This document shows positions 6,401 through 56,619 of a stretch of DNA of 64,000 bases, one piece after another. The notes under the pieces are model-generated. The model worked only from the letters and a program-made list of their open reading frames with translations. It had not been told where the DNA came from and did no database searches. Origin of the DNA: a virus; the IMG/VR virus record IMGVR_UViG_3300008108_000413, positions 1 to 64,000 of that record; one strand, written 5' to 3'. Each line of letters starts with the position of its first letter. Position 1 is the first letter of the stretch. The position numbers and the translations under genes are program-made.

Positions 6401-9400
6401 TATACCATTAATAAACTCAGCACTATTTCTAAGAAGGGATACACCAGATAAATTATCTATAGTAACTTTAACAGGATTACCTTTAGAGTCAAGTCTTTTT
6501 CTACCTGTATTTAAATCAAATACAGAATTCATCTGAACACTTGCTCTGGTATAAGGGTTTCTATTTGTAGCGAAATGTGATGTCTGAGGTTTAGCAACCA
6601 TTGTTTGGAAATCCTCAGAGTTGTTAACAGAGTTGGCAATCTCAAACATACTGTTATTTTTAGTAATAGTATATTGAGTTGTACCTTCTGCAGTTGTCTT
6701 ACTAAAGTTTGAGAATCTATCTGAATACTTAAGTTCTAGATTAGCAAGATCATTATAGTTAGTTACTTCATTTGTAAAATCAGGATTAAGATCTGTATTG
6801 TCTTTAATCAGGTCATTAATAGAAGTAACTACGCGATTATCATCATAATAAGCTTGAGCTATCTTATATAATCTATCTACTCTACCAATAGAATAACCAT
6901 CAGGTCTTATTTCATTAAGAATCTCATCTATCTCTTTAGCTTCAGATAAATTCATTCCTAAAGCGGATAAAAATCTACGCTTATTATTTAATGCCACCTG
7001 AAGTGTAGGAAAATCTTCGAAAATGTTTTTCAGGTTTAAAAATCTTATATCATCCTGTATAGAGATATACTTACCTCTTGCCGACTTAAAACTATTCTCC
7101 CAAGAAAGTTGTACAGCTTTAAAATCACCATAAGCTTCACCAAAGTTTATTTCAAACTCAGATTCTTTAGTCTCTACAAAGTTACCTTGCTCATCAGTAT
7201 AACCTGTTATTTCATTAATATTTAACTGTTTAAGCTTAGCTTCAGATATTCTTCCTACATAGTTTACCGCATCCCAAAGTCTTTGAATACCACCAACAGG
7301 ACTCATAGGATCTCCCAGTTTAACTAGGAGTTCTTTAAAAGGAGTAAATTCTTCAGATGCTTTTATTAAACGATTATAGATATCTAAAACACCATCATTA
7401 CCTGCAATAGTTCTTACAAATCTATTAATTACAAGTCTCTCATTAACTGGTACATCAAAGCCAAGTCTATTTTTAGTCTTAGACTTTAACCCTTTTAATA
7501 GAGTTTTAATTTCTACAGGTATAAACTCATCTACAGATTGCTCATTACCTTCTCTACTAAATAATCTACCTTCTTCATTTTTAGCATCTTCGAGTTCATC
7601 TTCAAATCTATCATCAAAAGATAAAACCTCACTTCTAAATTTGTGGAATCCTATAACACCAACACCAAGTGAATTATTACTTAGATTATCAGTATCCCCA
7701 AAGTTATCTACCGCATATTGTAGAATTCTAATATCATTCTGAATACGTTGTTTCTTAGGACTTGTAGAGTTAGGATTAGCTTCAATAAGCTCTATTGTAA
7801 ATTTATATACATCTTCAATAGCTTTCCTACCTGCATCATTGAGTTGTCTAGTACCTACTCCTGCGTATCTCTGTGTAAGCGCTGGAGTATCCATAGGCTC
7901 AAACTCAGCACCATTCCACTCATACCAACCTACCTTAGTAGTATTATCTGCTAAAGTACCCTGATGAAATACATATACAGGTTTACCAAGATCTATTGCC
8001 ATTTGAACAGCATATCCTGTTCCCCCATCTACAATAGCTTTTTTGGTGGTATTTTCGTAACGCTTACCTTTTACAGCTTTACCTTTTTCTCCAGGTAAGA
8101 TAATATCACTTACTGCAAATACAGCATCTGAGTATTTAACTTGAAAATAATCTCTTCTTACAAGCTTACCACCTGTAGAATCAACAGAAAGTTCTTTTCT
8201 ACCTAACCTAGCTACAGCAGTTTTATAAGCTTGTTCAGCTTCTTCTTTTAATTCTTCTGTAGCTTCATCATAACTATCTGGAGTAAAGTCTACCTGTTTA
8301 CCTAAACCGTACTCATAACCTCTTTCAGCCCAGTATTTATCAGCACCTTCTGCATCTCCTGCATAGTTTTCATATCCAGAAAGATCTTTGGTAATCTCAG
8401 AAAGTTCTTTCTTTCTTTCTTGTAATCTTTCTTCAAGAGTTCTTTTTACTTCTTTATAGAGAAGAGATCTAGCTTCTTTTTTAGCAAGAATGTTATAACT
8501 GATAGCAGCATTATTAGATAATGCTAGTTTATATGTAATATCAGAAATAATAGAATCTACAGACTGGTTAATCAAGAGTGACTCTGTTCTAGATATAGAA
8601 TGTTCATTTCTATCTTCTTCATTAACAGCCTCCATATTCTTTGTAAGAATATCAAACTCTACATTTCTAGGATCAAACTTATACTCATTAAGATCTCCTA
8701 CATAGAGCTTTTCATACATATCAGCAATTTCTTTTGTAGATCTTATTTCTGATAAAGCTTGAGTATAACTCACCTTACCAAACAAAGATTTAAGAAAAGC
8801 TAAAATCTTTTGGAATATATTCTTCCTTACAGGAGTAGCATCTAATACTTTTTTACCACCAGATATTACATATTCTCTAAATCCTTCTGCTAAATGTTCT
8901 TCTAATTGAAGTCTTGAAGCATCTTTAAACTCTACACGAGTACCTTTGTAATCTATAAAAGAACCAGACTGCTTTCTTGCTTCAGCATAAAGCTTATCCT
9001 TTTGTTCTTTAGTTAGGAATAACTGTGTAAACCCATGCCAAGCTTCGTGATAAAGATCTGACATATCAGACCCTTTAAGCAAAGTAATACCATTAATATC
9101 CCATGTAGCTATAGCATTTGGTGTAGAAGTATTAATAGCGTTAAACATTACCTTAAACGGTATATATTTAGCTAAATCAGTACTATTATACCAAGACTCT
9201 GCATTATCTAAAAACTCTTTAGCGGCTTTCTTTTCAGTAAGCTTTGTTTTTGTGCTTTTTTCAAAGAAGCTTTTGTTTTTTTGTAAAGCTTCAAAAAAAG
9301 TTTCAGGAGCATTTTTACTATCTGTATCTATACCTTGATCTGCAGGAGATTCATCAACCTCATATACATCATCATAAGTATCACTATCCATGGTAGTTTG

Positions 9401-38830: not shown

Positions 38831-40963
38831 TTAAATAGGTTGACAGTCATTCCCTGTACTACATTGTACAGTACCTCCACCTACAGTACCACCTACAACA
38901 CTACCTTCTTGTGCACATAAGAATACAGCAGCATCTGGATCTAATTGATATTGAGCAGGTAATCCTGTTTCACAGTTTATATAATCTATAGTTATAGGTA
39001 CTCTATTAGTATTAAATACTTCATAGCAATAACAAGGTGAAGGTATACAGCTTTGATTATTAGTACATTGTGTACCTAGTCCTGCTACACTATAAGTTGC
39101 TCCTTGAGTTGATGTAGATAAGCAAGGTATATACTTAGAGCATACTGTTGTTGATTGACCCTGTAATAGAGTTACAACAGACCCTTCCCCTACACAAGAC
39201 AAGTAAGTATATGTACCAGAACCCAGAGTTTGAGTAATTGTCCAGCAAGTACAAGGAATATCCACAAGCACAGGATCAGGATCCAGAATAGCTTGGAGGT
39301 CCAAAAGTTCTTTTTTAACATCCCAATAGTTTATATCTCTATCACAGCAAATAGTAACTCCATATCTTGCTTTTACCATTTCATCATATACTGCAGTAGC
39401 ATAACCACAAGTTACTCTATAGTAGTATTCAGGTGAACAAGCTGGGGTATCATACCCTGGTTTTACAGATCTTTTCTTAAGTTCTCTTGGTATTGGAGGC
39501 ACATAAGAACATGCTTCACATGTAGCAAATGCTTTAGTTACAGTATTATCTGTAGGAAAATATAAAGTACAGCTTGTATCAGAAGTAACTTGATAGCAAG
39601 CTTTTCCACAATTACTAAGGTTTACTACTTGTCCTACATACTGACTGAAATCAGTAGAAGTGTTAATGATATCCGTATTATCAGCACAATTAGTAAGTGT
39701 ATAATATGTCGGTAAGCATTCATCGCAATCTTGAAAAGAGGTAAGACCAGTTGTATCAATCTGAATTACTTGAGTACAATCTTGAGAAAGCTCTACAGTA
39801 AAACAGTTTTTATAACCAGTAAGTTGACTAGTATCGCAGCAACTAGGACAATCACCACTTGGAAGAATAGGTAGATTAATTGTCTGACCTACATAAGCAG
39901 CTAAGTCATTACTTACTACAAATGTACATTCTATATCACAACAGTTTGTTAATAAATAACAAGGAGGTGCTTCATAGTAAGTCCATACTGCCTCAAGAGT
40001 TTTAGCTCCAGGTATAACTTCACTAGTAGCTACAGTATTACCTGAGTTACTAGTTACTTGTTCTGTAGTATTTATTCCTAGATAACCATCATTAATATTG
40101 TAGAAATGACCTGCTAGTCTATTATCTCCAGAAGCTGTAGTAGCTTGAATTTGAGTCCAAGAAGCACCTGCATCTGTAGATTGAATAACTACATTTCTTG
40201 CACCTGTAGCCCATAAGTTGTTATCATCAATCCAAGTAAGATGTTTACCTGCAAATTCAGTAATAGAAACCCATGCATAAACAATGCTCCACGTAGTACC
40301 ACCATTAGTAGATCTTACAATATACTGAGTACCACAAGCTACAATTGTTTGCTCATCTGCAGATATGTGAATACCTACAATATTTTGTGGTAGCTGTTGT
40401 GTAGCACCTGGACTAAATATACTAGTCCAAGTTGTACCGCTATCTGTAGTTTTAAAGATATTGTTTCTACAACCTACAACTCCTGTAGTAGCATTAATAA
40501 AATGTAATGAGTAAGCTGCTAGAGTAATAGAATCTGCACCAAGTACTGGAGATGCTGGAGGAAGTTGAGTACAAGTATTATAAGTAACACCTCCATCAGT
40601 GCTCTTAATTACTGTACCATATTCACCACAAGCATAAGAATTTAAGCTATCTACAACCCAAACTTCATATAATCTAAAGTTAAATTGATTCGCAGTAGCT
40701 TGATAAGTACCTGTAGGTATACTCCAGTTTGTACCACCATTAGATGATACTAATACTCCATAGAAGCTGGGAGAATTACCTAAAAGGGCTTGACCTACAA
40801 CAAATACCTTATCCCCATCAGTGGGGTCTGTCATCACATCATGATAAACAGGAGGAGTAGAACCTGATAAAAAAGAAAAACTCACATTACTCCAAGGAGT
40901 AGTGTTATTAATAAGTTTCCTTATGTATCCTGCATTACCTACATGGTATGTTATTGTAGACAT
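38831..40963 (-). CDS. Beta-propeller (Asp-box) adhesin with cysteine-rich repeats (710 aa)
   Basis: Residues about 1-330 contain at least five Asp-box motifs (SSNGGTNW, STDGGVTY, TTDSGTTW, STNGGTTW, STDAGASW), the mark of sortilin/Ycf48/sialidase-type propellers. After this come repeated cysteine modules of the form Y-L-T-N-C ... YVGQ-x-[IV]-N-L, seen around residues 340-480, then further Cys-rich segments to the end. Propellers of this type often bind glycans or proteins, so a receptor-binding role is likely but inferred. The gene begins three bases after the 59-residue Cys-rich gene and is followed by other fibre genes. Confidence 0.75.
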   Translation of the reverse strand: MSTITYHVGNAGYIRKLINNTTPWSNVSFSFLSGSTPPVYHDVMTDPTDGDKVFVVGQALLGNSPSFYGVLVSSNGGTNWSIPTGTYQATANQFNFRLYEVWVVDSLNSYACGEYGTVIKSTDGGVTYNTCTQLPPASPVLGADSITLAAYSLHFINATTGVVGCRNNIFKTTDSGTTWTSIFSPGATQQLPQNIVGIHISADEQTIVACGTQYIVRSTNGGTTWSIVYAWVSITEFAGKHLTWIDDNNLWATGARNVVIQSTDAGASWTQIQATTASGDNRLAGHFYNINDGYLGINTTEQVTSNSGNTVATSEVIPGAKTLEAVWTYYEAPPCYLLTNCCDIECTFVVSNDLAAYVGQTINLPILPSGDCPSCCDTSQLTGYKNCFTVELSQDCTQVIQIDTTGLTSFQDCDECLPTYYTLTNCADNTDIINTSTDFSQYVGQVVNLSNCGKACYQVTSDTSCTLYFPTDNTVTKAFATCEACSYVPPIPRELKKRSVKPGYDTPACSPEYYYRVTCGYATAVYDEMVKARYGVTICCDRDINYWDVKKELLDLQAILDPDPVLVDIPCTCWTITQTLGSGTYTYLSCVGEGSVVTLLQGQSTTVCSKYIPCLSTSTQGATYSVAGLGTQCTNNQSCIPSPCYCYEVFNTNRVPITIDYINCETGLPAQYQLDPDAAVFLCAQEGSVVGGTVGGGTVQCSTGNDCQPI

Positions 40964-41810: not shown

Positions 41811-43160
41811 TTAGGTCAAAGGCTCATTAGGTACTACTTCACAAGGCTCGCAAGTTTTAACCTCAAGAGCTGTGCAGCCATTACCACAAGAAGTCAACCA
41901 TGTAGTCATGTTTGCTTCAAATGGAGCAATTTGACCATTTACAATAATTTCAAGCATGTACTGATCATTATCAAAAGTACCTGTTGGGTTATTGTAACGT
42001 GGCACACTGTGCAAGATGAAGTATCTTCCATATAATGCATTGCGGTTAACATTTGCAATGATATCAGATCCCTGAGTGATTTCACGGATACGGATATCAG
42101 TATGGAAGTAGTTCTGCAAGTAAGACTCAGACAAGATCAAGTCACGAAGAACTTGCTCACCAAAGCCCATACCCTGAAGACCATAGCACTCAGTGTATAC
42201 ACAGATGCTTTCAAATACACATGGATCACCATTGTAATCAACAAGAGAAGCATAGATGCGTACTAATTCTTTCTCAAAGAAATCAGTGATCTGGAAAGAA
42301 CAGTTACCAAACTTAGTTTCTACATAAGCACCAAATAAGCGCAGACCAGCGCACTCACCTACTACGTGTCCTGGAGACACATATGCAGACCACCACTGAG
42401 CTGGAGTTACAGGAAGACCAGAGATAGGATCTACTGTAGTTCCTGGAGCATACCAAGCAACACCTGCTTCATCAAATACAACTGGAAGAACAAAGCTCTT
42501 AGTGTATTCAGAAGTGATGATCTCATTTGCCCAAGAAATCATTACCAATGTAGAATCTACTGGAGTAGGAGTAGGACCAGGGCAGCATCCTGTGTAAGCA
42601 GAAAGTGTGTGGTAAGAGTTGTGGTTCAAGAAACGCAACAAAGGAGATCCTTTAAGATCTAAGCGCAAGTAGTAAGTTTCTCCACACAAGAACTCAAAGC
42701 AGCAAGTAGCAGCAGTAGTTCCACCCTGATATTGATCAGGATTTGTAGGACCTGAAGTACCAGGAGTATTACCTACAGATACAACAGCCTGTTGAGGAGT
42801 ACAAGTATCTACATAGTAGAACTGGTGGATGTACTTAGGGTTAATGTACTTAGACTTGTTAGTCTCTTGGTAACCACCAATGTAAGGGCTGATCTTATCT
42901 TTCTGATAAAGAGAAGATGAAGCCAAAACAAGTGGACAACAAGGTCCTGGAAGAGAAGAGAAGTTTACTTTCTCATAAGTGTCTTTGTTAAAAAGACTGA
43001 AATACCCTGGTCCAAGAGTAGACAGAGTAGCTGTAGTTGTGCCATTAGTTGTAATATAACCAGCAGTTGAAGCAGGGTTAGTTACACTAGGTACTTGTGG
43101 GTTCAAGGTAGTACCTGTTCCCAAAAACACCTTTGTAAAGGCATGATTAAAATAAGCCAT
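41811..43160 (-). CDS. Major tail or fibre structural protein candidate (449 aa)
   Basis: The protein starts MAYFNHAFTKVFLGTGTTLN and is beta-rich with paired cysteines (CCPL, CCFEFLCG, CCPGP, and a C-terminal CGNGC and CEPC). It has its own promoter-like site upstream and a strong terminator downstream, a layout that usually marks a protein needed in many copies. I recall proteins with this N-terminus as structural components in Bacteroidota phages but cannot name a specific role. It follows the ferritin gene by 86 bases. Confidence 0.68.
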   Translation of the reverse strand: MAYFNHAFTKVFLGTGTTLNPQVPSVTNPASTAGYITTNGTTTATLSTLGPGYFSLFNKDTYEKVNFSSLPGPCCPLVLASSSLYQKDKISPYIGGYQETNKSKYINPKYIHQFYYVDTCTPQQAVVSVGNTPGTSGPTNPDQYQGGTTAATCCFEFLCGETYYLRLDLKGSPLLRFLNHNSYHTLSAYTGCCPGPTPTPVDSTLVMISWANEIITSEYTKSFVLPVVFDEAGVAWYAPGTTVDPISGLPVTPAQWWSAYVSPGHVVGECAGLRLFGAYVETKFGNCSFQITDFFEKELVRIYASLVDYNGDPCVFESICVYTECYGLQGMGFGEQVLRDLILSESYLQNYFHTDIRIREITQGSDIIANVNRNALYGRYFILHSVPRYNNPTGTFDNDQYMLEIIVNGQIAPFEANMTTWLTSCGNGCTALEVKTCEPCEVVPNEPLT

Positions 43161-43246: not shown

Positions 43247-43843
43247 TTATAGATAGTCTTTTAACTCATGGTCAAACAAACGCATAGCAATCTTGTCTGT
43301 ACCAAAAGCTTCTAACTGATCCATAAGATCCTGCATTTTACCATGCTCTTCTAACTGTTCTTTCAGATAAGCAAGACCAAGCTGATATAACATATGATCT
43401 CCTATCTTAATAGCATGGGTAGAAAGGTCTTTAATTTGTGTAGTTACCTCAATTTCATGTTCATAAGACTTTTCAATAATTTGAGGTAACCCTGTAAAAG
43501 TCTGTTCAGGAGATTCTAAGCTTGGAGTTAAAGGTTGCACACCCATAGCCAAAAGATAAGTTCTAGCATCATTAGCGTGTAACATCTCTTCATCAGAGTA
43601 TTTTCTCCAAAGTTTTCCAGCATTTAAGTAGCCATTATCTTCTAACCACATAGACATAGCAAGATATACTCTAGCTGAGTATTCTTCCTGCTCTATTCTA
43701 TAGTTTAAGTACTTAATACATTCTTCAGTAATTAAAGGATTATGCTTTTTACTAGAAGGCTTTTTCTGTATAGTTGGTGTAGAAACAGCTTTAAATTCTG
43801 TTTTGAGAGTTCTTTTTAACATGTTAGGTGAAGGATTTTCCAT
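43247..43843 (-). CDS. Phage-encoded ferritin (FtnA-like), 198 aa
   Basis: Residues about 37-198 align by eye with bacterial non-haem ferritin (E. coli FtnA) along the whole four-helix bundle and the fifth helix. The ferroxidase ligands all appear present: Glu53 (EQEEYSA), Glu86 and His89 (DEEMLH), Glu130 (SYEHE), Glu162, Gln163 and Glu166 (KEQLEEHG). Tyr55 and Tyr60 match conserved tyrosines. Ferritins of this type oxidise Fe(II) and store iron as mineral in a 24-mer. The first 36 residues are an extra, basic extension not found in FtnA. The gene is 6 bases after a neck-like gene and has no promoter of its own, so it is made with late proteins. Whether it acts in the cell or is a virion part is open. 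Confidence 0.92.
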   Translation of the reverse strand: MENPSPNMLKRTLKTEFKAVSTPTIQKKPSSKKHNPLITEECIKYLNYRIEQEEYSARVYLAMSMWLEDNGYLNAGKLWRKYSDEEMLHANDARTYLLAMGVQPLTPSLESPEQTFTGLPQIIEKSYEHEIEVTTQIKDLSTHAIKIGDHMLYQLGLAYLKEQLEEHGKMQDLMDQLEAFGTDKIAMRLFDHELKDYL

Positions 43844-43849
43844 GATTTA

Positions 43850-44557
43850 TTAGTTGTTTTGTTCTACTGAATTACTTGCTCTTTCCATCTGGATTGTAGA
43901 TTCTATATCTCCAGCAATAATCTTAACAGCTTCATCTATTAAAAGCTCTACAAGATCATCTTTAAATTCACATTCTACATCTACTGTAGAAGCTACTTGG
44001 GTATATGGATCTACACATCCAGCTATTTGAATTTTTCTAGGTTGTCTATAATAAGTAAAGTTTACAGATTCAATTGTAAACTCTCCATTAGTATAGATCT
44101 GCATCTTGTTGTCCATAAATGTAGCAAAGGTCTCAGCCCAATCAAAACTAGGCTTCTTATTAACATCTCTTAACAAGAGATCTACATTTCCTTGTTCTGC
44201 AAGATAAACTACCATAGGTCTAGAGTCTTTACAGCAATCATTTTTAGCTTTTGCTGAAATTCTCTTATATCTAAGATACTCTACTGGGATAGCAGTAGCA
44301 GTTTCATAATAGGTATCAGTACTAACAAGATTTGGAGTATACTCAGTAATTAACACTTGTAAATCATCAATCCTACTAGTAGATGCTTCATCACCCTCTT
44401 TAGGTAAGTTAATACCATGAAGATTTCTGCGGCACCAATCAGCTTGACCCTTATTAAATGCTTCAACCATTTGCCAGCATTCTATGTTGTCATAGTCATT
44501 ACTAGCAAGTTTGTTGAGTCTTTGCTTAATCTTAAGCTGTATGGTTGCGTTATTCAT
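43850..44557 (-). CDS. Neck or tail ring/connector protein (235 aa)
   Basis: A helical N-terminus (IQLKIKQRLNKLASNDYDNI, then AFNKGQADWCRRNLHG) leads into a beta-rich middle (IPVEYLRYKRISAKAK; VNFTYYRQPRKIQIAGC) and a helical C-terminus. I recognise this plan from the connector or ring protein family of crAss-like phages, where it lies between head and tail genes. It directly precedes the ferritin gene with a 6-base gap and follows the basic small proteins by 2 bases. The exact place in the tail cannot be told from sequence. Confidence 0.68.
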   Translation of the reverse strand: MNNATIQLKIKQRLNKLASNDYDNIECWQMVEAFNKGQADWCRRNLHGINLPKEGDEASTSRIDDLQVLITEYTPNLVSTDTYYETATAIPVEYLRYKRISAKAKNDCCKDSRPMVVYLAEQGNVDLLLRDVNKKPSFDWAETFATFMDNKMQIYTNGEFTIESVNFTYYRQPRKIQIAGCVDPYTQVASTVDVECEFKDDLVELLIDEAVKIIAGDIESTIQMERASNSVEQNN

Positions 44558-44559
44558 GG

Positions 44560-44922
44560 TTATTTCTTCTTACGCATTTTACCCAGTGTTTGAGCAAGAG
44601 CTGCTTGTTTCTTAGTTCTAGTACTAGCCTTAGAACCTTCTTTCAATACACTTTTAGCATATGCTGCTGTTGATTTACCTGCTGCTTTAGCTTTAGCAGA
44701 AAAAGCTCCAGGTCTTTTGATAGCACCTTGAATCCAGTTACCACCCTTTTTCATTTCAGGTGTAGCTTTAGTTGCACCACCTTTTTTAATAACCCCACGA
44801 CCTTTGAGTACATCTGCTTTGGTTACTTTACCATCTCCTGTAAGATCTGGGAAGCTACCACCTTTTGCTTTTCTAGGGAGAGATTTCATAGCTCCTCCAC
44901 ACTGCATACATTTCTTAGCCAT
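44560..44922 (-). CDS. Basic small protein with EF-hand-like loop and Gly-Gly motifs (120 aa)
   Basis: It opens MAKKCMQCGGAMKSLPRKAKGG with a CxxC pair. Around residues 24-40, FPDLTGDGKVTKADVLKGRG has the Asp spacing of an EF-hand or dockerin-type calcium loop. Then come KKGGAT and MKKGGNW, and a C-terminal half I have seen in other small phage proteins (IKRPGAFSAKAKAAGKS). The protein is strongly basic and could bind DNA or coat the packaged genome. It is the last of a run of eight small basic genes. Confidence 0.7.
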   Translation of the reverse strand: MAKKCMQCGGAMKSLPRKAKGGSFPDLTGDGKVTKADVLKGRGVIKKGGATKATPEMKKGGNWIQGAIKRPGAFSAKAKAAGKSTAAYAKSVLKEGSKASTRTKKQAALAQTLGKMRKKK

Positions 44923-44940
44923 TGTGTATAAGTTTATTAA

Positions 44941-45195
44941 TTAACATTTCCATTTTCTAAGAGACTTATTGATCCTAGAGTTAGGATCATTAGCTGTTTT
45001 AGCAGAAGTAAGCTTTTTCTTCATACCTGACATTCTTGCACAAAAGCTTTTCTTTCTAGATCCACCTTCTGGTTGAGGAGCTTTAAGTCCAGGTTTACCT
45101 GGGTTAGCTCTATTATAAGAAGCTCTACCTTTAGCATTTAAACCTCCACTAGGAGACTTGCCTTCTTTGCGCTGCCATGCAGGACTCTTAGCCAT
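44941..45195 (-). CDS. Basic small protein of a widespread phage family (84 aa; DUF6321-like)
   Basis: SPAWQRKEGKSPSGGLNAKG, then SFCARMSGMKKKL and NDPNSRINKSLRKWKC make a pattern I recognise as a small, highly conserved family in phages of aquatic and gut origin; from memory it is DUF6321. It is very basic with two cysteines, one at the C-terminus. Function is unknown; DNA binding or virion packaging is a reasonable inference from charge and neighbourhood. It ends 18 bases before the next gene and starts 2 bases after the previous one. Confidence 0.75.
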   Translation of the reverse strand: MAKSPAWQRKEGKSPSGGLNAKGRASYNRANPGKPGLKAPQPEGGSRKKSFCARMSGMKKKLTSAKTANDPNSRINKSLRKWKC

Positions 45196-45197
45196 GG

Positions 45198-45407
45198 TTA
45201 TTTTCTTTTAGTTGTTGATTTTTTAGCAGGAGCTTTACCAGAACCAGATACTATACCACCTAACATTTTAACTTGTTCTTTAGCATAGTTTTGAGCAGCT
45301 CTCATTCTAGCTGCATTATTTTGAATTTCCTTAGCTTGCTTTAAAGTATCAAGATCCCATTTAGCTTGATATTCTTTATCTATTTTAAGTGTTTTAGATT
45401 TAGCCAT
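45198..45407 (-). CDS. Basic small helical protein (69 aa)
   Basis: Residues 8-50 form a charged helix (LDTLKQAKEIQNNAARMRAA) followed by a Gly/Ser/Lys tail ending KKSTTKRK. No family is recognised. It is packed 2 bases from each neighbour within the run of basic small genes and probably shares their role, whether in genome condensation or as an internal virion component. Confidence 0.62.
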   Translation of the reverse strand: MAKSKTLKIDKEYQAKWDLDTLKQAKEIQNNAARMRAAQNYAKEQVKMLGGIVSGSGKAPAKKSTTKRK

Positions 45408-45409
45408 GG

Positions 45410-45664
45410 TTATTTCTTTTTAGATTTTTTTACTCCACCTTTTTTAAAAGCAGGTGCTGGATTAGGTGACATGTAAGATTTACCTACACCTTTGTTTACT
45501 TTATAACCTTCTACAGGATTATAACTATTAGCAACACCAGCAGTGCCACCATCCATAAATTTCTTTTTAGCTGCAGTTCTAGTAGCCATAACCTCTTTAA
45601 CTTTAGAGTCACGCTTATCATTAAAGTGCTTAAGCACATCAACTTTTTTAGAAGTCTTTTTCAT
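45410..45664 (-). CDS. Basic small protein with Gly-Gly motifs (84 aa)
   Basis: The N-terminal half is Lys/Asp-rich and helical. FMDGGTAG lies near residue 37 and the end is AFKKGGVKKSKKK, the basic Gly-Gly pattern shared with several neighbouring genes and the large cargo proteins. No named family is recognised. It overlaps the preceding gene by one base. Confidence 0.62.
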   Translation of the reverse strand: MKKTSKKVDVLKHFNDKRDSKVKEVMATRTAAKKKFMDGGTAGVANSYNPVEGYKVNKGVGKSYMSPNPAPAFKKGGVKKSKKK

Positions 45665-45933
45665 TATCTAAATCTTTTTGCCTTTTGAGCTATGCTCTTA
45701 GGTTGTTTTACAAATTGTTTACCTTTTCTGTTACCCTCAGCTTTAGCTTTATTGGTAGCAGCTTTTTCTCCTGCAGACAAAGAACTCCAAGCAGCTTCTG
45801 GTAAGTATCTTTTCTTACCACTAGATTTTACTTCTTTAGAGGAACCCTTCTTTTTATTAGCATGGGTACCAGAAGTCATCCAATTTTGCTTAGTCCAATT
45901 CTTTAGACTTTGTTGTGACTTAGAGAGTGCCAT
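45664..45933 (-). CDS. Basic small protein (89 aa; DUF5872-like)
   Basis: SQQSLKNWTKQNWMTSG, YLPEAAWSSLSAGEKAATNK and KGKQFVKQPKSIAQKA follow the pattern of a small, widely distributed family I recall as DUF5872, common in large DNA viruses and phages. The function is not known. High positive charge suggests nucleic-acid contact. It starts directly after the TAA of the interrupted gene upstream (TAAATG). Confidence 0.75.
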   Translation of the reverse strand: MALSKSQQSLKNWTKQNWMTSGTHANKKKGSSKEVKSSGKKRYLPEAAWSSLSAGEKAATNKAKAEGNRKGKQFVKQPKSIAQKAKRFR

Positions 45934-46065
45934 TTACTTTACAGGTTTTGACTTAGTTGGTTTACCAGCTTTTCTCAGCTTTCTAGCTTAACAATGTGCT
46001 TTTTGTGAAAACCCTTTAGGATTTTTACAATCTATAGTCTTCTTATATTTATTAGACCAAGCCAT
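45934..46065 (-). pseudogene. Small basic phage gene interrupted by an in-frame TAA
   Basis: From ATG 46065 the frame reads MAWSNKYKKTIDCKNPKGFS then QKAHC and a TAA at 45988-45990. The same frame then continues with ARKLRKAGKPTKSKPVK and a second TAA at 45934-45936, exactly before the next ATG. Both halves look like one small basic protein that I recognise from other phages, where the sequence runs on after HC. A single C-to-T change (CAA to TAA) would explain the break. It may be a real nonsense mutation, a sequence error or read-through. The first 25 codons alone could still be made. Confidence 0.6.
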
Positions 46066-46642
46066 TAGTTCTTATATCCTCCACCAGCAGCTTTATATTT
46101 TTTATCTTTTTGGTGCTTCCACCTTTTTTCATCATAGATTTACCATACATAGCTTTAGATAAAGTACCACCTGTTTTTTTAGCTGGTGCTTTACTTACAG
46201 GTTTAGCTTTTGAAATTGGAAATCCATTTTTGTCATATCCTGGTTTTCCTTTATTAGCTTGTCTAGCTTGAGCTTGTTTAGCTTTTTTTTCAGCTTCCAA
46301 ATATCTAGAGTAAGCAGCTAAATTACCTGCCTCTATGGCAAAATCCTGATCGCTAGTTGCTTGAATAGCTTTATTTCTATAATAAGAAGTGCTATCAGGT
46401 GTAGCTTTTACAGTAGCTCCTTTTTGTGCTTTCTTAAGAGTTTTCATAGATCCACCTTTTTTAAATGTAGTAGGTTTTGGAGGAACTCCTTTCATAGTTC
46501 TACCAAACTTATCTACATATGTTTTAGGTGTGTAAACCTTTGGTTTAGCACTATCTACAGTAGGCTTAGGGGTGGCTGTTGATTTAACAACCATACCCGC
46601 ATTAGCCTTCTTAAGTTTTGCTTTCTTCATGTGAGAGCTCAT
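46052..46642 (-). CDS. Basic Gly-Gly motif protein with a suspected frame break near its end (196 aa)
   Basis: A Lys/Ala/Thr/Pro-rich protein with FKKGGSMKTLKKAQKG near residue 65 and KAMYGKSMMKKGGSTKK near 165-180. The last 19 residues (IKNIKLLVEDIRTNGLV) look unlike the rest. In the -1 frame after AAAAAG at 46106-46111 the end would be DKKYKAAGGGYKN with a TAA overlapping the next ATG (TAATG), a much more natural junction. Either a base is missing in the A-run or the gene uses a -1 shift. The KAMYGK-x-MMKKGG segment is shared with the neighbouring 110-aa gene. Function unknown. Confidence 0.65.
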   Translation of the reverse strand: MSSHMKKAKLKKANAGMVVKSTATPKPTVDSAKPKVYTPKTYVDKFGRTMKGVPPKPTTFKKGGSMKTLKKAQKGATVKATPDSTSYYRNKAIQATSDQDFAIEAGNLAAYSRYLEAEKKAKQAQARQANKGKPGYDKNGFPISKAKPVSKAPAKKTGGTLSKAMYGKSMMKKGGSTKKIKNIKLLVEDIRTNGLV

Positions 46643-46644
46643 AA

Positions 46645-46977
46645 TTATTTCTTTTTAGCTTTGGTTGCACCACCCTTTTTCATCATGGTCTTGCCATACA
46701 TTGCTTTAGGCATAGATCCACCTTTTTTCATCAAACCACGGTTTGCTTGGTTTGTAGGTGACTTAGAAAAGGTAGTAGATGAGCTAATCTTTTTACCAGG
46801 GGTAGCACCTGTTGGAGGAGTGTTTACTCCACCAGAAGAAGTAGCGCGAGACTTAGTACCTTTTCCTGCAACTTTGCTAGGAGACATGAATTCACTAGCA
46901 CTGTTAGGATTTGCCATACCACCAGTCATGTATTTTTTCATTGGCTTAGTGGATTTTTTAACTGCAACTTTTTTCAT
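46645..46977 (-). CDS. Basic Gly-Gly motif protein (110 aa)
   Basis: A Lys/Ser/Gly/Pro-rich, largely unstructured protein. Gly-Gly motifs are YMTGGMAN, GLMKKGGSMP and MMKKGGATKAKKK at the C-terminus. The last 25 residues closely match the C-terminal part of the next gene (KAMYGK-[ST]-MMKKGG), which points to duplication of the tail segment. It is the first of the run of basic small genes and lies 21 bases after the 337-aa gene. Not an assigned family; an internal or DNA-binding virion component is inferred. Confidence 0.65.
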   Translation of the reverse strand: MKKVAVKKSTKPMKKYMTGGMANPNSASEFMSPSKVAGKGTKSRATSSGGVNTPPTGATPGKKISSSTTFSKSPTNQANRGLMKKGGSMPKAMYGKTMMKKGGATKAKKK

Positions 46978-48623: not shown

Positions 48624-50249
48624 TTAGAATGATCCACCAGTGATTGGGTTTCTCATAACAATTTTCAACACTTTGGTTGGGTCTTTTACCCAGATTGCTG
48701 GCATTGTTTGAGTCATCATTACACGGTAACCATTGAATTGACCTGAGCTTTGGAACCCTTGAGTTCTACCCATGTAATCCATAGTACCGTTCTGATACCA
48801 CCACTTCAATTGATTATCCCAAGATAACTTCAACATGAAGATGTTGTCATTACCTGTGTCAGTGATATCAAAGATAACAAAGCTATAAGATGACAATGGG
48901 TTACCATCAATGATTGGGTTTTCAATGTCATTTGTATGCAAGTTATCAAAAGCAGGGTTCAAGACAAACTTAACATTTGCCAAGAATGGGATCACATAGC
49001 TAGTGAATGCAAATCCGTAGTTCAGATCCATTCCTTTACCAGTGATTGCTCCAATACCATTGTTGTCTGCAGCCTGGATAACCAAACCTGAGTTAACTGC
49101 TTCACGCTTAATAGCTTCATTAACCATGCGCATACCACCCATACCAGTTTGTACAATAAGCTGACGCTTAGGATCTGGACCTTGGAACTCAACGCGACCT
49201 GCATAGAAGTTGTAAAGCTCACCACGGAATAATTCCAAAGAGAAGTTATTCTTGTTGTAAACACGCTTGAAGGAGTTATCCAACTGCTTCCACAAACCTA
49301 CAGAAAGACGCATATCATCTGGACCATCTTGCTTAATGCGACCACCATGACCCCACATCAAGTAAGTTTCAATGTCAGTAGCAATTTTAGTCAAGTGTGC
49401 AGATTCCATAGTAGTCAAGAATGTGCGAGTCAATGTACCATTAGATACTGCTTTCTTCACATAATCTTTACCCATTACAGATACCATGTCTTCAATCTTA
49501 GTGATTGATGGATCCATTTGCTTGTCAAAGTTTCTCCAGATCTCAGTTACAGGTACAGTGCCATCAGCATTTAATCCACCCTTAACCATAAGGTCAGCGC
49601 GAGAAGATACTGAATAGTGTACATGTGCTTCAGCTCCACCTACGAAGTTGTAGAACTCACGGAAACCAGAGCGGGTCATGATGTCAGAGAATCTCTCACC
49701 ATACTCACCACGCGCAGAACCTTTTCTGAAGATCTTAGTACCATTTGACAAATACTTGTTATCTAAGAACTTGTAGTTGTCATTGTTTACTAATTGTACA
49801 GTGTAGATGAAACCATCTCCCATAGGAAGAATGTCATCAGCAGTGATGTACATTTCACAACCATTGTACTTGTCATAAGTGATGATATCACCATGTCCAA
49901 ACTCTCTACGGTTGATTTTGATTTTGAAGGTAGTACCATCAATACCTTTGTTCTGGTTGTTTGGTTCAATATCCTCAATGATATAAGGAAGATCCTGAGA
50001 TACAGGAGTCTGCCACTTATACTCACCACGAGCATTGTCTACCATGATGATGTTCTTACCACCAAAGCTAGAAAGCTGGTAAAGAGGCATTTCTACTTTC
50101 TGAGCCATAGCCCAGATATCTACTGGACCTAAGTCCATAGGTTCTGCATTCTTAAGCATGTTTACCAAGTGGTATGAATCCACATGGGAACTTGCTTGAT
50201 AATTGGTATCGCGCAGGAAAATACCATTATTTAAAACTGGAGTTGCCAT
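48624..50249 (-). CDS. Major capsid protein (HK97-fold, crAss-like), 541 aa
   Basis: The position after terminase, portal and scaffold candidate, the length close to that of known crAss-like capsid proteins, and composition (few Cys, many Asn/Gly/Trp, dense aromatic residues) identify this as the capsid subunit. Segments such as FGHGDIITYDKYNGCEMYIT, YLMWGHGGRIKQDGPDDMRL and the C-terminal VKDPTKVLKIVMRNPITGG follow the pattern I know for this family. The + strand over this gene is richer in GC than its neighbours, in keeping with high expression. It is flanked by tandem heptamers before the start and a strong terminator after the stop. The start (MATPVLNNGIFL) has an A-rich leader. Confidence 0.9.
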   Translation of the reverse strand: MATPVLNNGIFLRDTNYQASSHVDSYHLVNMLKNAEPMDLGPVDIWAMAQKVEMPLYQLSSFGGKNIIMVDNARGEYKWQTPVSQDLPYIIEDIEPNNQNKGIDGTTFKIKINRREFGHGDIITYDKYNGCEMYITADDILPMGDGFIYTVQLVNNDNYKFLDNKYLSNGTKIFRKGSARGEYGERFSDIMTRSGFREFYNFVGGAEAHVHYSVSSRADLMVKGGLNADGTVPVTEIWRNFDKQMDPSITKIEDMVSVMGKDYVKKAVSNGTLTRTFLTTMESAHLTKIATDIETYLMWGHGGRIKQDGPDDMRLSVGLWKQLDNSFKRVYNKNNFSLELFRGELYNFYAGRVEFQGPDPKRQLIVQTGMGGMRMVNEAIKREAVNSGLVIQAADNNGIGAITGKGMDLNYGFAFTSYVIPFLANVKFVLNPAFDNLHTNDIENPIIDGNPLSSYSFVIFDITDTGNDNIFMLKLSWDNQLKWWYQNGTMDYMGRTQGFQSSGQFNGYRVMMTQTMPAIWVKDPTKVLKIVMRNPITGGSF

Positions 50250-51647: not shown

Positions 51648-54422
51648 TTACTTTTTCTTGTTCTTATTTTCTCTAGACTTTGGTTGATCATACTTGTTTT
51701 TGTTCTCTTTAGCTATCTGTAACTCAGTATTCTTCATATCTCTCTGAGCCTGAATCTTTTCTCTTTCAATAGCAAGTTTTTCTCTAGCATTCATTTCTTT
51801 GTTAGATTGAACCTGCTGTTTTAGACCCATAGTTTGTTGGAACTCATCAGATTTGCGGATAATATCCATTTGATCTGCATAATCAGATTGTAGATTCTGG
51901 TTAATGTCTTGCATAGAACCATAACCTGCAGCTTTAATCTGAGCTTCAAGAAGTTTAACTCTGCGGTCTTTTTCTTTCTCCATAGACTCATGATCAAGCT
52001 CAAGCTGCTTCTCTTTTGCTTGTTGTTCAAGTTGAGCTTGTTGCATTTGCTGCTCATGCTGCATTTGCTCTTGTCTTTGTTGATTCGCTTTATCTTCAAT
52101 CTTCTTAAGACTATGAGTAAGCTCAGCCATAGATTCTGCAGTCATGATATTACCCAGGTCATAGATACTTGCACCTGATGTATTATTAGAAAGAGCCAAT
52201 TGCTTCATTTGTTCTACCATAGCTCTGTGATTAGCTTTAGTAGTGCAGAATACATTGATGTCTCTGAGCAATAGATCTGTACCATTAATCTCAAAGTTTA
52301 CCTTCTCATCAAGAGTAGTCATGTACTGAAGTCTCAAAGAAGGTTTCTTAGAGTGATAATACTGAGCAAGATCAGTTCTCATTTGGTGAACTCTAGGCAT
52401 CAAATAATCAGAGTGTTGTACAAAGTACATCTCTGTTTGTGCATAAGATCCTGCCACAGCTTGCTCTACTCCAGTAGCTGTATTAGTTTGACCAATCTGC
52501 TGACCAAGTCTTTGTGGTGTAATACCTATTACTTCAAAGCATTGCTGCTTAAAGTAATTAGCCAAGTTAATCCTAGACATCATACGCTGAGTCTGTTCTA
52601 GGTTCATAACCTGGAAATGTTGGAAAGCAAGTGGGTTTTCTGTATTGGTAATACTTGTATCCAGAGGTAACATCTGGAAATTCTTCATAGCTACATAAGC
52701 CTTAGCAAGATTGTTCTTACCCCAATCTTCACCCAGAGAATGTCGGGGTAGCGCATTTTGATCCAACAAAATTACGGTCCCCAACTCATCTACTAGGATG
52801 TCAGCAATTTGATTGTTGACAATATTATAGCCAATCTGGAAAGGTTTCATAAGATCTACCATTGCTGTAGATCTTGTATTTCTATCTGAGAACACTGAAC
52901 CCTCTACTGGAAGTTTGCATCCATAGAGTGTATTATCTCCTTTAAACTGGAATCTAAGCTTACCAATGCGGTTTTGATCTATTCCAAGATACATAGGATT
53001 GATACCTCCTGGGTTATTCATACCCCAGAAGGATGGGTGGTTAGGACCAATTTTTACACCTCCCCAAACTTCATTGATCCAGATCCACTCGATATGCTCT
53101 CCAAAAATAAGATTGTCTTTAGTCTTATTTTTAAATAATGCTGTGTTGTAAATAGGTTTGTCAGTAATCTTGTAGTCTTCATCAATGATATCTACAATTA
53201 CTTCACCTGACTCTGTAATCTTTGTAAGGTGACCTACTTTGCGTTGTGATTTCCAATAAGCTGTAGTTGTTCTGAGCATGAAAGCCATACCCATGTCTTT
53301 ATAATCTTCAGACTCACCCATTACCCAGTTTACAATATCTCCACCATTATAGATGAAGTTATCATACATGGATACAAATTGTCTGTATTGTAAAGAAGGC
53401 ATGTTAGTATTCCAATCATGACCCTTAGTAGCATCATAGTAACTACCATCATTTTGGTATCCCTGTAGAGGATAACCTGCAGATCTTACTGGATAAATAG
53501 CTTCAAGAGATTCAAGCTGTTCTTGAGTCATAAGATAACCATACTTATCTATAACATCAGCCACAGTCATCATCTCAATTTTTCCTACCCAGTTACCCTG
53601 AGAAATATATCTTACTTCAGGTGATTTGTGGTAGAAAGTCATTACAGGATTCCAGAGTTCAATATCATAGTCATCATCCATCATGCGGAAGTGCCAGAAC
53701 TCTCTATCTGTAATTAACATATCTCTGAAAGCTCTCTCCTCAAGCTCATCCATTTTGAAGCGCTCTTCATCTACTTTGAACTGGTGTTGAGCCCATTGCT
53801 CACCCATAGATCTGTAGTTTTTAGTAAAGAAATCTTCAATTTCTGGAAGAGTTTTAAGATTTTCAGGAGCAAGCTGCTGTTGTAATTTCTCTTGAATCTC
53901 AGGATCATTGGGATCAACCCCCATCTCAATCATATTAGTAATGAGCTTTTGCTCAGCTTGAGAAAGAAGAACCTGCTCTACAGCTTGTCTTTTTTGTTCC
54001 ATGAGTTCATTATATGTGAACTCATCTACAGCTTTAAAGGTAACTTTTGTATTGCGCTTTGCAAACTCAGATACCATTACATTAATAACATTTGGAATAA
54101 TTGGATAGAACTTAAGTTCTAATGCACTAAAATCTTCCTGAGTTAGAGTTTCAAGAAGATCTCTATTCTCATTATCCTCAGAAACAAGGTAATCTGTTTT
54201 ATCTATAATACCTTTAGCTAGCTTATAGTTCTTCATAAGTCTTCTAGCATTTCTTCTGATTTGCTTAAGACCTTGCCATTCTAGCCAATCTAAATTCCAA
54301 GCAGTCCAATCTTCATCTTTTTCTTTTCTTGGTAGAAATTGTATAGGTTGAGTGATTGAGCCCATGCGGTTATATTCCGCCTTAGCTCCACTCTTTAACT
54401 GCATTGCATTTAAAACCTTCAT
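51648..54422 (-). CDS. Portal protein (crAss-like), 924 aa
   Basis: It lies one base after the terminase gene. The N-terminal 400 residues alternate helices with Trp/Tyr-rich strands, including VTFKAVDEF, ELWNPVMTFYHKSPEVRYIS and the segment around residues 300-330 (YGYLMTQEQLESLEAIYPVR), a pattern known from crAss-like portals. The C-terminal 150 residues are a Gln/Glu/Lys-rich coiled coil that would form the long barrel inside the head. The length is at the large end for portals but usual in this group. The portal forms a twelve-fold ring through which DNA is packaged and ejected. Confidence 0.88.
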   Translation of the reverse strand: MKVLNAMQLKSGAKAEYNRMGSITQPIQFLPRKEKDEDWTAWNLDWLEWQGLKQIRRNARRLMKNYKLAKGIIDKTDYLVSEDNENRDLLETLTQEDFSALELKFYPIIPNVINVMVSEFAKRNTKVTFKAVDEFTYNELMEQKRQAVEQVLLSQAEQKLITNMIEMGVDPNDPEIQEKLQQQLAPENLKTLPEIEDFFTKNYRSMGEQWAQHQFKVDEERFKMDELEERAFRDMLITDREFWHFRMMDDDYDIELWNPVMTFYHKSPEVRYISQGNWVGKIEMMTVADVIDKYGYLMTQEQLESLEAIYPVRSAGYPLQGYQNDGSYYDATKGHDWNTNMPSLQYRQFVSMYDNFIYNGGDIVNWVMGESEDYKDMGMAFMLRTTTAYWKSQRKVGHLTKITESGEVIVDIIDEDYKITDKPIYNTALFKNKTKDNLIFGEHIEWIWINEVWGGVKIGPNHPSFWGMNNPGGINPMYLGIDQNRIGKLRFQFKGDNTLYGCKLPVEGSVFSDRNTRSTAMVDLMKPFQIGYNIVNNQIADILVDELGTVILLDQNALPRHSLGEDWGKNNLAKAYVAMKNFQMLPLDTSITNTENPLAFQHFQVMNLEQTQRMMSRINLANYFKQQCFEVIGITPQRLGQQIGQTNTATGVEQAVAGSYAQTEMYFVQHSDYLMPRVHQMRTDLAQYYHSKKPSLRLQYMTTLDEKVNFEINGTDLLLRDINVFCTTKANHRAMVEQMKQLALSNNTSGASIYDLGNIMTAESMAELTHSLKKIEDKANQQRQEQMQHEQQMQQAQLEQQAKEKQLELDHESMEKEKDRRVKLLEAQIKAAGYGSMQDINQNLQSDYADQMDIIRKSDEFQQTMGLKQQVQSNKEMNAREKLAIEREKIQAQRDMKNTELQIAKENKNKYDQPKSRENKNKKK

Positions 54423-54423
54423 G

Positions 54424-56619
54424 TTATCTCATGTTTTTAAATGGAGATTTAGGAAAGCTCATACCAGGAACTTTCCTCATCTTTCCCATGTGCCTAAAAG
54501 GGCTTGTATTTAATTTATATAAATTATCAGACTTTTGCAAGTTATTAGTGTTTACCTGGTCTACTCTTTTCTTGTATCCTCTATTAGCCTGCTGAACTTT
54601 AGCAAAGGCAATAAGCGCTGCTAAAGATACTAATCTATCCACGTTTACATCATCATCATATGCTTCCATTTCTGTAAAAGCCATAGGATCTGGTATTCTT
54701 TCTACCCCATAAGTAGTCTTTACTATGGTACCATCATCCTTAGTTTCATGAGTTAGTTCTTCTTTTAAGAACTCAATCAGGTAGCTAAGCATGTGACTTT
54801 TGAAGAGAGTACCTGTGTTTTTCCACCCATACTCCTGGAACACGTTAGTATTACTACCCAGATCCTTAAGGAATAGAATTTGATTTTTAGGTACTAAATA
54901 CTTCTGTTTCTTCCTTTGTATCATGTAGTTAATAAAGTGGGATATGTTATTTTCCACAATGGTCCATGCATTATACCACTCTATTATAAGTTCTAGTCTT
55001 TCATGGGTTTTGTTAATATCATCAAATCTACCACACCATGCAGCTACTATTCTATCATTTTCTATATGATTAGTAGTCTCATGTTTATCTACTCTGGTTA
55101 CCTCTACTGGGTTTTTATAGACATAGATAGAACAGAGTGATTCTGAAGTAGTTGTTTTACCCTCACCAACGGGGTCAATAGATGCATAATAGGTACCCCA
55201 TTCTGAGTTAGCTTGTGGTCTTTCCCATACTACTAATACTCCTGTTTTATCTTCAGTGTTCTTAGTTATAGGGAATTCTGAGATAGGTAGCTTGTTTGTA
55301 AGCTTAGGTTCTATTTTACCAGCAGCATCCCTCTCCAGATTTATAAACTCATAAGGATATTCTTTTTCATCAATCCTTCTTTTTTGAGCTGCAACTAGAC
55401 TCATAGGGAATTTAGATACTTTTCTAAAGGCAAATGCTTCAGCTATATTCTTAGGATGCTGGGATATTCTAAGCTGATATTGCTCAGGTGTAAGATCTTT
55501 TTTCCACTTAAGTCTTTGATTATCAATAGCTTCTACTGATTCTTTTACTAGAGAATTACCATACTGATCTATAAATGGAGGCATAGACCATTGCTCAGGT
55601 ATAAATAAACCTGTCTTACCTATAGTACCTTTGTCATCTAATAGATCAGATTCTACTGAATAAATACTATTAGACTCTGGGTAGAGTATCATTTGTTTTA
55701 AAGGTTGACACTGATCTAAGTCACCCACAGATCCTGCAGCAACAAATAAACCTGTAGTAAGCATACCTGATTGCATAGCAGGAAACAAGAATTCCACTGT
55801 TACATCCATCTTAGGTGCAATACCAGCTTCCTCATGAAAGAAGAAAGTACATGGTCCACCTACACCAGATGTAGGATCTTTCTCAAAAGTAACTCCTTGA
55901 AGCACACCTTTTAGACCAGTCATACTTTTTCTACCACCTATAACTTGCTCAATCTGCTGTTGCCACAAAAGAACCTTATTAGGATTCATAGGTCTATACC
56001 AAGCAGTGTGCAAATCCAGGAAAGACTTGTACTCATTTAGAAATTTCCAAGATCCTTTTTCATTGATATAATCTTTAAGGCTTGCACCCATCTTTACAAT
56101 AGGTGTTTCTTCAAACCATATAAGATTTATCATCTTAGCACAGTGGAAATAAGAAGATGCTATTTGTCGCTTTTTGAGGATAGCTGCATGTTGATAGTTG
56201 AGTTCTGCAAGGAGCTCGTATAATGCCATGTGGTATTGTGCATCCCTGACACTTGGAAAGTCAAACTTTCTTTTTTCTTTGTCATTGATTGGTAAGAAAT
56301 TGAGCCACATGTAGTATTCTCTGGGAAGGTACCATGTGAGTTTACCATCTGTAAAGATTGCTCCATATCTGCATTTTTCTTTTTCTGCATCCCAATATTT
56401 TCTATAATCCTTGCTACCCATAGGTCCAGAGAAATAGTAACCCTGATTCCTAAATTTTTGAGCTTCTTCATTAAAGTATAGAGAAACTTCATTAAAATCA
56501 TATTTTCCAGGTTCTTTAAATACAGAAAGTACAAAGTCTTTGTACTCATCACGAGTAGCAAATTCAGTGTATTCCCAAACACCTTTATTCCAAGTAGGTA
56601 TTTTAATGTAACTACTCAT
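54424..56619 (-). CDS. terL: Terminase large subunit (packaging ATPase and nuclease), 731 aa
   Basis: The ATPase part has KKRQIASS at residues 149-156, a degenerate Walker A of the type found in crAss-like terminases (no classic GKS). FFFHEEAG at 259-266 is the Walker B with catalytic Glu. The nuclease part has YASIDPVGEG at about 478-487 with the first metal-binding Asp, an acidic ENNIS segment near 570, and DDDVNVDRLVSLAAL near the end. The enzyme translocates and cuts phage DNA at the portal. It overlaps the short gene upstream by 8 bases and stops one base before the portal start. Confidence 0.93.
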   Translation of the reverse strand: MSSYIKIPTWNKGVWEYTEFATRDEYKDFVLSVFKEPGKYDFNEVSLYFNEEAQKFRNQGYYFSGPMGSKDYRKYWDAEKEKCRYGAIFTDGKLTWYLPREYYMWLNFLPINDKEKRKFDFPSVRDAQYHMALYELLAELNYQHAAILKKRQIASSYFHCAKMINLIWFEETPIVKMGASLKDYINEKGSWKFLNEYKSFLDLHTAWYRPMNPNKVLLWQQQIEQVIGGRKSMTGLKGVLQGVTFEKDPTSGVGGPCTFFFHEEAGIAPKMDVTVEFLFPAMQSGMLTTGLFVAAGSVGDLDQCQPLKQMILYPESNSIYSVESDLLDDKGTIGKTGLFIPEQWSMPPFIDQYGNSLVKESVEAIDNQRLKWKKDLTPEQYQLRISQHPKNIAEAFAFRKVSKFPMSLVAAQKRRIDEKEYPYEFINLERDAAGKIEPKLTNKLPISEFPITKNTEDKTGVLVVWERPQANSEWGTYYASIDPVGEGKTTTSESLCSIYVYKNPVEVTRVDKHETTNHIENDRIVAAWCGRFDDINKTHERLELIIEWYNAWTIVENNISHFINYMIQRKKQKYLVPKNQILFLKDLGSNTNVFQEYGWKNTGTLFKSHMLSYLIEFLKEELTHETKDDGTIVKTTYGVERIPDPMAFTEMEAYDDDVNVDRLVSLAALIAFAKVQQANRGYKKRVDQVNTNNLQKSDNLYKLNTSPFRHMGKMRKVPGMSFPKSPFKNMR

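Follow-up and report, generated by a model that had tools for sequence, protein, structure and literature searches.

Background

The internal proteins of the T-even phages are diverse payloads that have only a capsid targeting sequence (CTS) in common (PMC3012670). The cargo-loading peptide of the family 1 encapsulins has the consensus SDGSLGIGSLKRS, which contains LKR as part of SLKR (PMC8346489). Inside virions of phiCrAss001, zones next to the portal and within the tail barrel hold cargo (PMC10172136). The cargo proteins of that phage, gp45, gp46, gp47, gp49 and gp50, are internal proteins near the portal or tail barrel; none of them is a ferritin, and no ferritin has been reported from phiCrAss001, unlike the phage described here.

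The nearest published phage case is that of Dps and Mn-catalase in the Gratiaviridae (PMC8008677). Phage ferritins and Dps proteins have so far been seen singly and have been classed as auxiliary or stress genes. In the literature searched, with subscription journals outside its coverage, no description of a ferritin in crAss-like phages was found, and no paper was found that names DUF5856, the second protein family considered below.

Is a phage ferritin an enzyme that acts free in the infected cell? Or does it belong with the particle being assembled there? Here we investigate a ferritin gene in the structural region of an environmental phage genome, in a stretch of 64,000 bases, referred to as the window, taken from an IMG/VR virus sequence of 66,816 bases (IMGVR_UViG_3300008108_000413). 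We find that two ferroxidase families, the second of them a likely one, repeatedly replace each other at one structural locus behind one leader.

Results and Discussion

Genomic setting of the ferritin gene

The preliminary description of the window as part of a crAss-like phage is borne out by its major capsid protein (MCP), portal and terminase genes which, with the ring protein gene, place it in the Crassvirales (Table 1). The ferritin gene starts with ATG and begins 6 bases downstream of a gene that had been called neck-like. This neighbour is indeed a ring/neck gene, its product being homologous to the ring protein of csAssE-Sib and to gp064, a virion structural protein of Cellulophaga phi17:2. 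On the far side, a gene of the M[AS]YFNHAF... type follows in relatives, whether the place between it and the ring gene, which we call the slot, is filled or empty.

Table 1. Coordinates of the ferritin gene, its parts and the structural genes around it in the window
Feature	Coordinates	Strand	Evidence or remark
449-aa gene (MAYFNHAF...), downstream slot boundary	41811..43160	-	same gene type in relatives
Ferritin gene, 198 aa, slot occupant	43247..43843	-	PF00210, PDB ferritins, AF2 model and Foldseek, 55-member alignment
Variable linker from leader to ferritin core, about residues 16-36	43736..43798	-	length and sequence differ between phages
Leader peptide coding region, codons 1-15, MENPSPNMLKRTLKT, LKR at residues 9-11	43799..43843	-	shared with DUF5856 occupants
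Ring/neck (tail barrel) protein gene, upstream of slot, 6 bases off	43850..44557	-	phrog_29507 virion structural protein
Major capsid protein	48624..50249	-	PF23898 Crass_capsid, phrog_11589
Portal protein	51648..54422	-	phrog_6547, 312 bits
Terminase large subunit	54424..56619	-	phrog_6681, 192 bits

A profile scan with the ferritin returned 80 loci with related ferritins. A search for the same gene at this locus had been proposed as a check, and many independent viral contigs proved to carry a ferritin there; with dozens of such contigs, host contamination or chimeric assembly was rejected as the source of the gene. Ferritin matches in MT838998.1 and MT839617.1 (L005 and L006) were set aside, as the neighbouring genes look bacterial-chromosomal although both were deposited as Bacteriophage sp. 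A 5.5-kb contig in a Tissierellales MAG (L252, JACIXZ010000027.1) encodes a ferritin 63% identical to that of the window amid phage-like neighbours, and is probably a misbinned phage fragment.

The product is an FtnA-type ferritin

The gene had been read as a complete ferritin gene with every FtnA-type ferroxidase ligand kept, and both readings proved correct. Its product matches the Pfam Ferritin family (PF00210) at 75 bits, against a cut-off of 24.5, and a phmmer search finds its closest PDB relatives in the ferritins of Helicobacter pylori and Vibrio cholerae. Structure prediction, another of the checks proposed, gave an AF2 model (pLDDT 87.9) with helices at residues 40-69, 73-99, 119-146, 150-180 and 184-197, which form a four-helix bundle plus helix E. 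In Foldseek comparisons the model superposes on V. cholerae ferritin with a target TM of 0.95 and an rmsd of about 1 A, and on E. coli FtnA (1eum) with a TM of 0.95.

Across 55 aligned phage ferritins, which share 38-82% identity with that of the window, the ligands E53, E86, H89, E130, Q163 and E166 never vary, E162 reaches at least 90% conservation, and E85 is also nearly invariant. Residues 39-195 align to residues 3-159 of the PDB chain, and with this offset of 36 the six invariant ligands correspond to E17, E50, H53, E94, Q127 and E130 of E. coli FtnA. The product is thus certainly an FtnA-type ferritin. It has the same four-helix fold and short fifth helix as the bacterial non-heme ferritins of this type, and agrees with those of E. 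coli, H. pylori and V. cholerae in all ferroxidase ligands, the third-site glutamates included. Unlike its cellular relatives, it is encoded by a phage, lies in a structural operon, and has an N-terminal leader and linker. From its family membership a 24-mer cage would be expected.

The most similar ferritin, in the same place in L003, is 82% identical, and the adjacent ring protein is less conserved (70%). Between these two ferritin genes dN is 0.135 and dS is 2.87, the latter saturated, which indicates that the gene is under purifying selection.

One slot, two protein families

The gene after the ring gene was surveyed in loci retrieved in searches for ring protein, MCP and ferritin. A ferritin came next in 87 of the 187 loci, a count per locus that includes redundant copies. 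Counted by unique ring proteins (n = 126), the slot holds a ferritin in 47 cases and in 52 a member of the DUF5856 family (PF19174), of about 130-170 aa; it is empty in 18, or roughly 15%, so its function must be dispensable. In 35 large contigs, selected by slot content and searched whole, ferritin was present in 16: 15 had ferritin only, 13 had DUF5856 only, one had both and six had neither. Ferritin and DUF5856 are therefore nearly mutually exclusive genome-wide in this set. Rare genomes do have the two genes adjoining (L194:7549-8513, and L197 and L206 at about 8000-9055), and in the latter two the LKR leader described below is confined to the slot ferritin.

Among isolated relatives, no ferritin or Dps is annotated directly after the ring gene in Cellulophaga phi17:2, csAssE-Sib, the Leptolyngbya phage or Flavobacterium FpV4, and for this reason their published virion proteomes are uninformative about the slot.

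What is DUF5856? In phage databases phrog_858/PF19174 (for example, L084:15957-16409) is labelled a starvation-inducible transcriptional regulator (PHROG) or unknown. Its profile matches HP-NAP (E 5.5e-7) with the ligands equivalent to H25, H37, D52 and E56 aligned, and at the four Dps ligand positions examined all 43 aligned sequences keep H48, H60, D75 and E79. A structural model (pLDDT 87.6) finds only Dps or ferritin structures in Foldseek, with Dps on top (probability 1.00, TM 0.6-0.7, E about 2e-3), and in VIA scores Z 16.1 against MsDps2. DUF5856/phrog_858 is, on the profile and the predicted structure, likely a Dps-fold family with Dps di-iron ligands. It would share with HP-NAP and MsDps2 both the fold and the spacing of the inter-subunit di-iron ligands; it differs from the Dps family in being shorter at the loop and, for slot members, in having the LKR leader.

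Exchange of slot genes between close relatives

The exchange is clearest between L146 (3300042884_000193), which has the ferritin, and L150 (3300042940_000117), which has DUF5856. The two are 97-99.9% identical over about 16 kb. Identity continues through the ring gene and nucleotides 1-35 of the slot gene, which encode MAEQPRNLLKR, is lost across the body of the gene, and is regained about 10 nucleotides before the stop codon. Three contigs have the ferritin version, a further reason for rejecting a chimeric assembly, and one has the DUF5856 version. The slot swap is the main difference between L146 and L150; a second differing stretch of about 250 bases lies upstream of the slot (L146:7307-7562, L150:7336-7562), and in L146 it has a small basic gene starting MAAKSKQMLKRKDG.

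The slot has also been exchanged in the pairs L135/L121, L040/L099 and L086/L083. In more distant pairs the alignable DNA mostly ends near nucleotides 23-53 of the slot gene, and sometimes at the gene start. On the ring-protein tree, a quick tree with many open forks and of a gene that may itself recombine, the label changes between ferritin and DUF5856 at least 19 times, and even when only the well-supported branches are considered, 10 gains or losses are required for one label and 11 for the other.

A leader specific to the slot

Occupants of both families begin with a leader of roughly the form M-E-x-P-R-x-L-K-R. The ferritins start MEAKPRMLKRPE... in L189 and MENPSPNMLKRTLK... in the window, and the DUF5856 proteins MEKPRMLKRDT... 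in L075 and MDFNPPSILKRTLK... in L089. Strict LKR within the first 20 residues was counted in nr90 sets, with Fisher tests to compare the counts. Among the slot proteins, 20/36 ferritins and 31/41 DUF5856 proteins have it; in the comparison sets it occurs in 12/1672 of the remaining ORFs at these loci and in 1/15 non-slot ferritins. The motif was spotted before it was counted in this first set, which makes these counts partly descriptive; a second set, from two further scans directed at relatives outside the slot, is the cleaner test. There LKR was absent from all new non-slot proteins (0/21 ferritins, 0/66 DUF5856) and present in two of five newly found slot ferritins. A loose form of the motif is also absent from five of the 36 slot ferritins, and some other occupants have just a weak form. 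The N-termini of slot DUF5856 proteins are closer to those of slot ferritins than the background is (AUC 0.99). Outside the slot, phage ferritins and DUF5856 proteins almost never carry LKR. Together with the swaps, these observations give strong support to the view that the post-ring position is an interchangeable slot for a ferritin or a Dps-fold DUF5856 protein behind a site-specific leader.

In the AF2 model the leader region is of low confidence (pLDDT below 50 at residues 7-25) and no helix is predicted before residue 40; the leader is presumably disordered. The preliminary description had reported an extra basic N-terminus of 36 residues. The extension exists, but with a net charge of +6 the window lies at the high end, and the family is just modestly basic: the slot extensions, of 11-45 residues, range from +1 to +6. 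Dps tails bind DNA, and a Lys/Arg-rich extension like that of E. coli Dps might enable the cage to coat phage DNA, whether replicating or packaged; all slot extensions but one do carry net positive charge. The charge is mostly just +1 to +4, however, and conservation is focused on one short motif with a proline and a leucine, not on scattered lysines. Since most members have only a mildly basic extension, a simple DNA-binding tail is disfavoured, and we regard it as quite unlikely.

The leader might also have no function. Recombination could be anchored on the ring gene, which is conserved, and on the 5' end of the slot gene, with the first codons merely inherited; in L146/L150, as in many other pairs, the breakpoint does lie directly after the leader. 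Yet the motif is kept between phages whose ring proteins are about 57-65% identical, its L, K and R codons varying synonymously, while the adjoining linker varies freely. In L135/L121, moreover, alignable DNA stops at the gene start and both genes nevertheless encode the LKR leader. Passive inheritance of the leader is therefore very improbable. That the basic extension might attach the protein to something had also been suggested. A role in attachment fits a conserved leader that is common to the unrelated-looking DUF5856, but the element consists of a short leader and a variable linker and is not mainly a basic tail.

A possible second site beside the portal gene

In another crAss-like group the portal gene is followed immediately by the ferritin gene (L336:4001-4525), whose product begins MEVPKVKLGG. 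The syntenic L414, with a portal 68% and an MCP-like gene 84% identical, has a DUF5856 gene (3992-4378) in that place, with the start MEVPKLKSTT. The portal-adjacent ferritins are without LKR; the leader there is MEVPK(V/L)K. This one pair, with a leader of seven residues, is suggestive of a second site at which ferritin and DUF5856 alternate behind a leader of their own. In unrelated podoviruses DUF5856 likewise follows the portal or head-tail connector gene. The homologue g280 of Yersinia phage phiR1-37, which has no LKR leader, is annotated in its record as a phage structural protein, and a DUF5856 protein may thus be able to reach virions without the leader.

Possible role of the slot

We propose that environmental crAss-like phages have in their late structural operon a slot reserved for a ferroxidase cage, at present filled in the window by the ferritin, and that the leader docks this cage; we consider the chances of this reading about even. 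Cage assembly, iron oxidation in vivo, docking and its partner, a location in the virion and the benefit to the phage are what we infer from the genes. The slot gene would yield a catalytically competent ferritin, a 24-mer by family. The N-termini of ferritin and Dps face the cage exterior, and a cage would display 24 (ferritin) or 12 (Dps) leaders outside on flexible linkers. As a docking peptide, the leader would bring the cage to the capsid interior, the portal, the tail barrel or an assembly site. With the slot lying amid structural genes, a partner in the virion or in assembly is the first candidate to consider, and the leader likely docks the cage to one or the other. A docked cage would oxidise and sequester Fe(II) and so reduce the Fenton damage done to DNA as it is packaged or once it lies in the virion; iron delivery is a possible alternative benefit. 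A Dps-fold DUF5856 may stand in for ferritin because selection would act on the leader and the ferroxidase activity: with ligands and leader conserved and the fold freely exchanged, what appears to be kept is the ability to oxidise iron and to recognise a partner. The swapping separates what is kept (ferroxidase and leader) from what is released (fold), and so makes the docking hypothesis directly testable.

The cage might instead be an auxiliary enzyme against iron or oxidative stress, free in the cell during late infection without ever entering the virion, its leader binding a host protein, a membrane or nothing important. The ferritin-like Dps enzymes of other gut phages (Gratiaviridae) have been described as oxidative-stress tolerance genes (PMC8008677). 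The nearest cellular relatives of the slot ferritins are chromosomal ferritins of Flavobacteriia, 44-50% identical and without the N-terminal extension, which group with the phage ferritins in a tree and lie in stress-gene neighbourhoods, and leaderless phage ferritins exist outside the slot. Against this reading, it is only at the slot that both protein families keep the leader, and ferritin and DUF5856 genes occur with structural genes at two separate sites, beside the ring and the portal gene. We consider a purely intracellular role rather unlikely.

A more specific form of the docking proposal is that an interchangeable iron-oxidising nanocage is virion cargo, loaded by a short N-terminal peptide much as encapsulin and T4 cargo are loaded by theirs, which guards the genome against iron-dependent oxidative damage or carries iron to the next host. 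This form is tentative and falls somewhat short of an even chance. As at the T4 CTS locus, different proteins stand under one conserved N-terminal leader at a late phage locus, and the payloads are exchangeable. The T4 payloads are counter-defence proteins, whereas the slot payload would always be a ferroxidase cage; the leader sequences differ, and packaging of the slot payload is a prediction. The encapsulin peptide, too, is short, is borne by ferritin-superfamily cargo and binds an HK97-fold shell, but it is mostly C-terminal and the slot leader is N-terminal. The likeness between the two amounts to three residues; it is a lead, and may be due to chance. A scan of the neighbouring proteins turned up no encapsulin family, and the HK97-fold protein there is the phage MCP; membership of an encapsulin system was considered and not accepted. 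Cages of 9-12 nm could not pass intact through a tail with constrictions like those of phiCrAss001, which are below 50 A. Should the cages prove to be virion cargo, iron enzymes would travel in phage particles, with a bearing on phage-borne iron and on the survival of phage DNA under oxidation in oxic water.

Other observations

Five BFVD proteins of uncultured Caudovirales (A0A6J7XDU5, A0A6J7WPK9, A0A6J7WIS1, A0A6J7WVS4 and A0A6J5N5R9), of 333-763 aa and named prohead protease or Dps, give weak matches to the ferritin fold and are possibly fusions of ferritin-like domains to head proteins. In the window, six small lysine-rich proteins with KKGG motifs are encoded in a run between the MCP region and the ring gene (44560-46977, minus strand), one of which matches eight PHROG families of unknown function. 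The structural module also encodes a cysteine-rich protein of 710 aa with a YCF48/sortilin-like repeat domain (38831-40963, minus strand).
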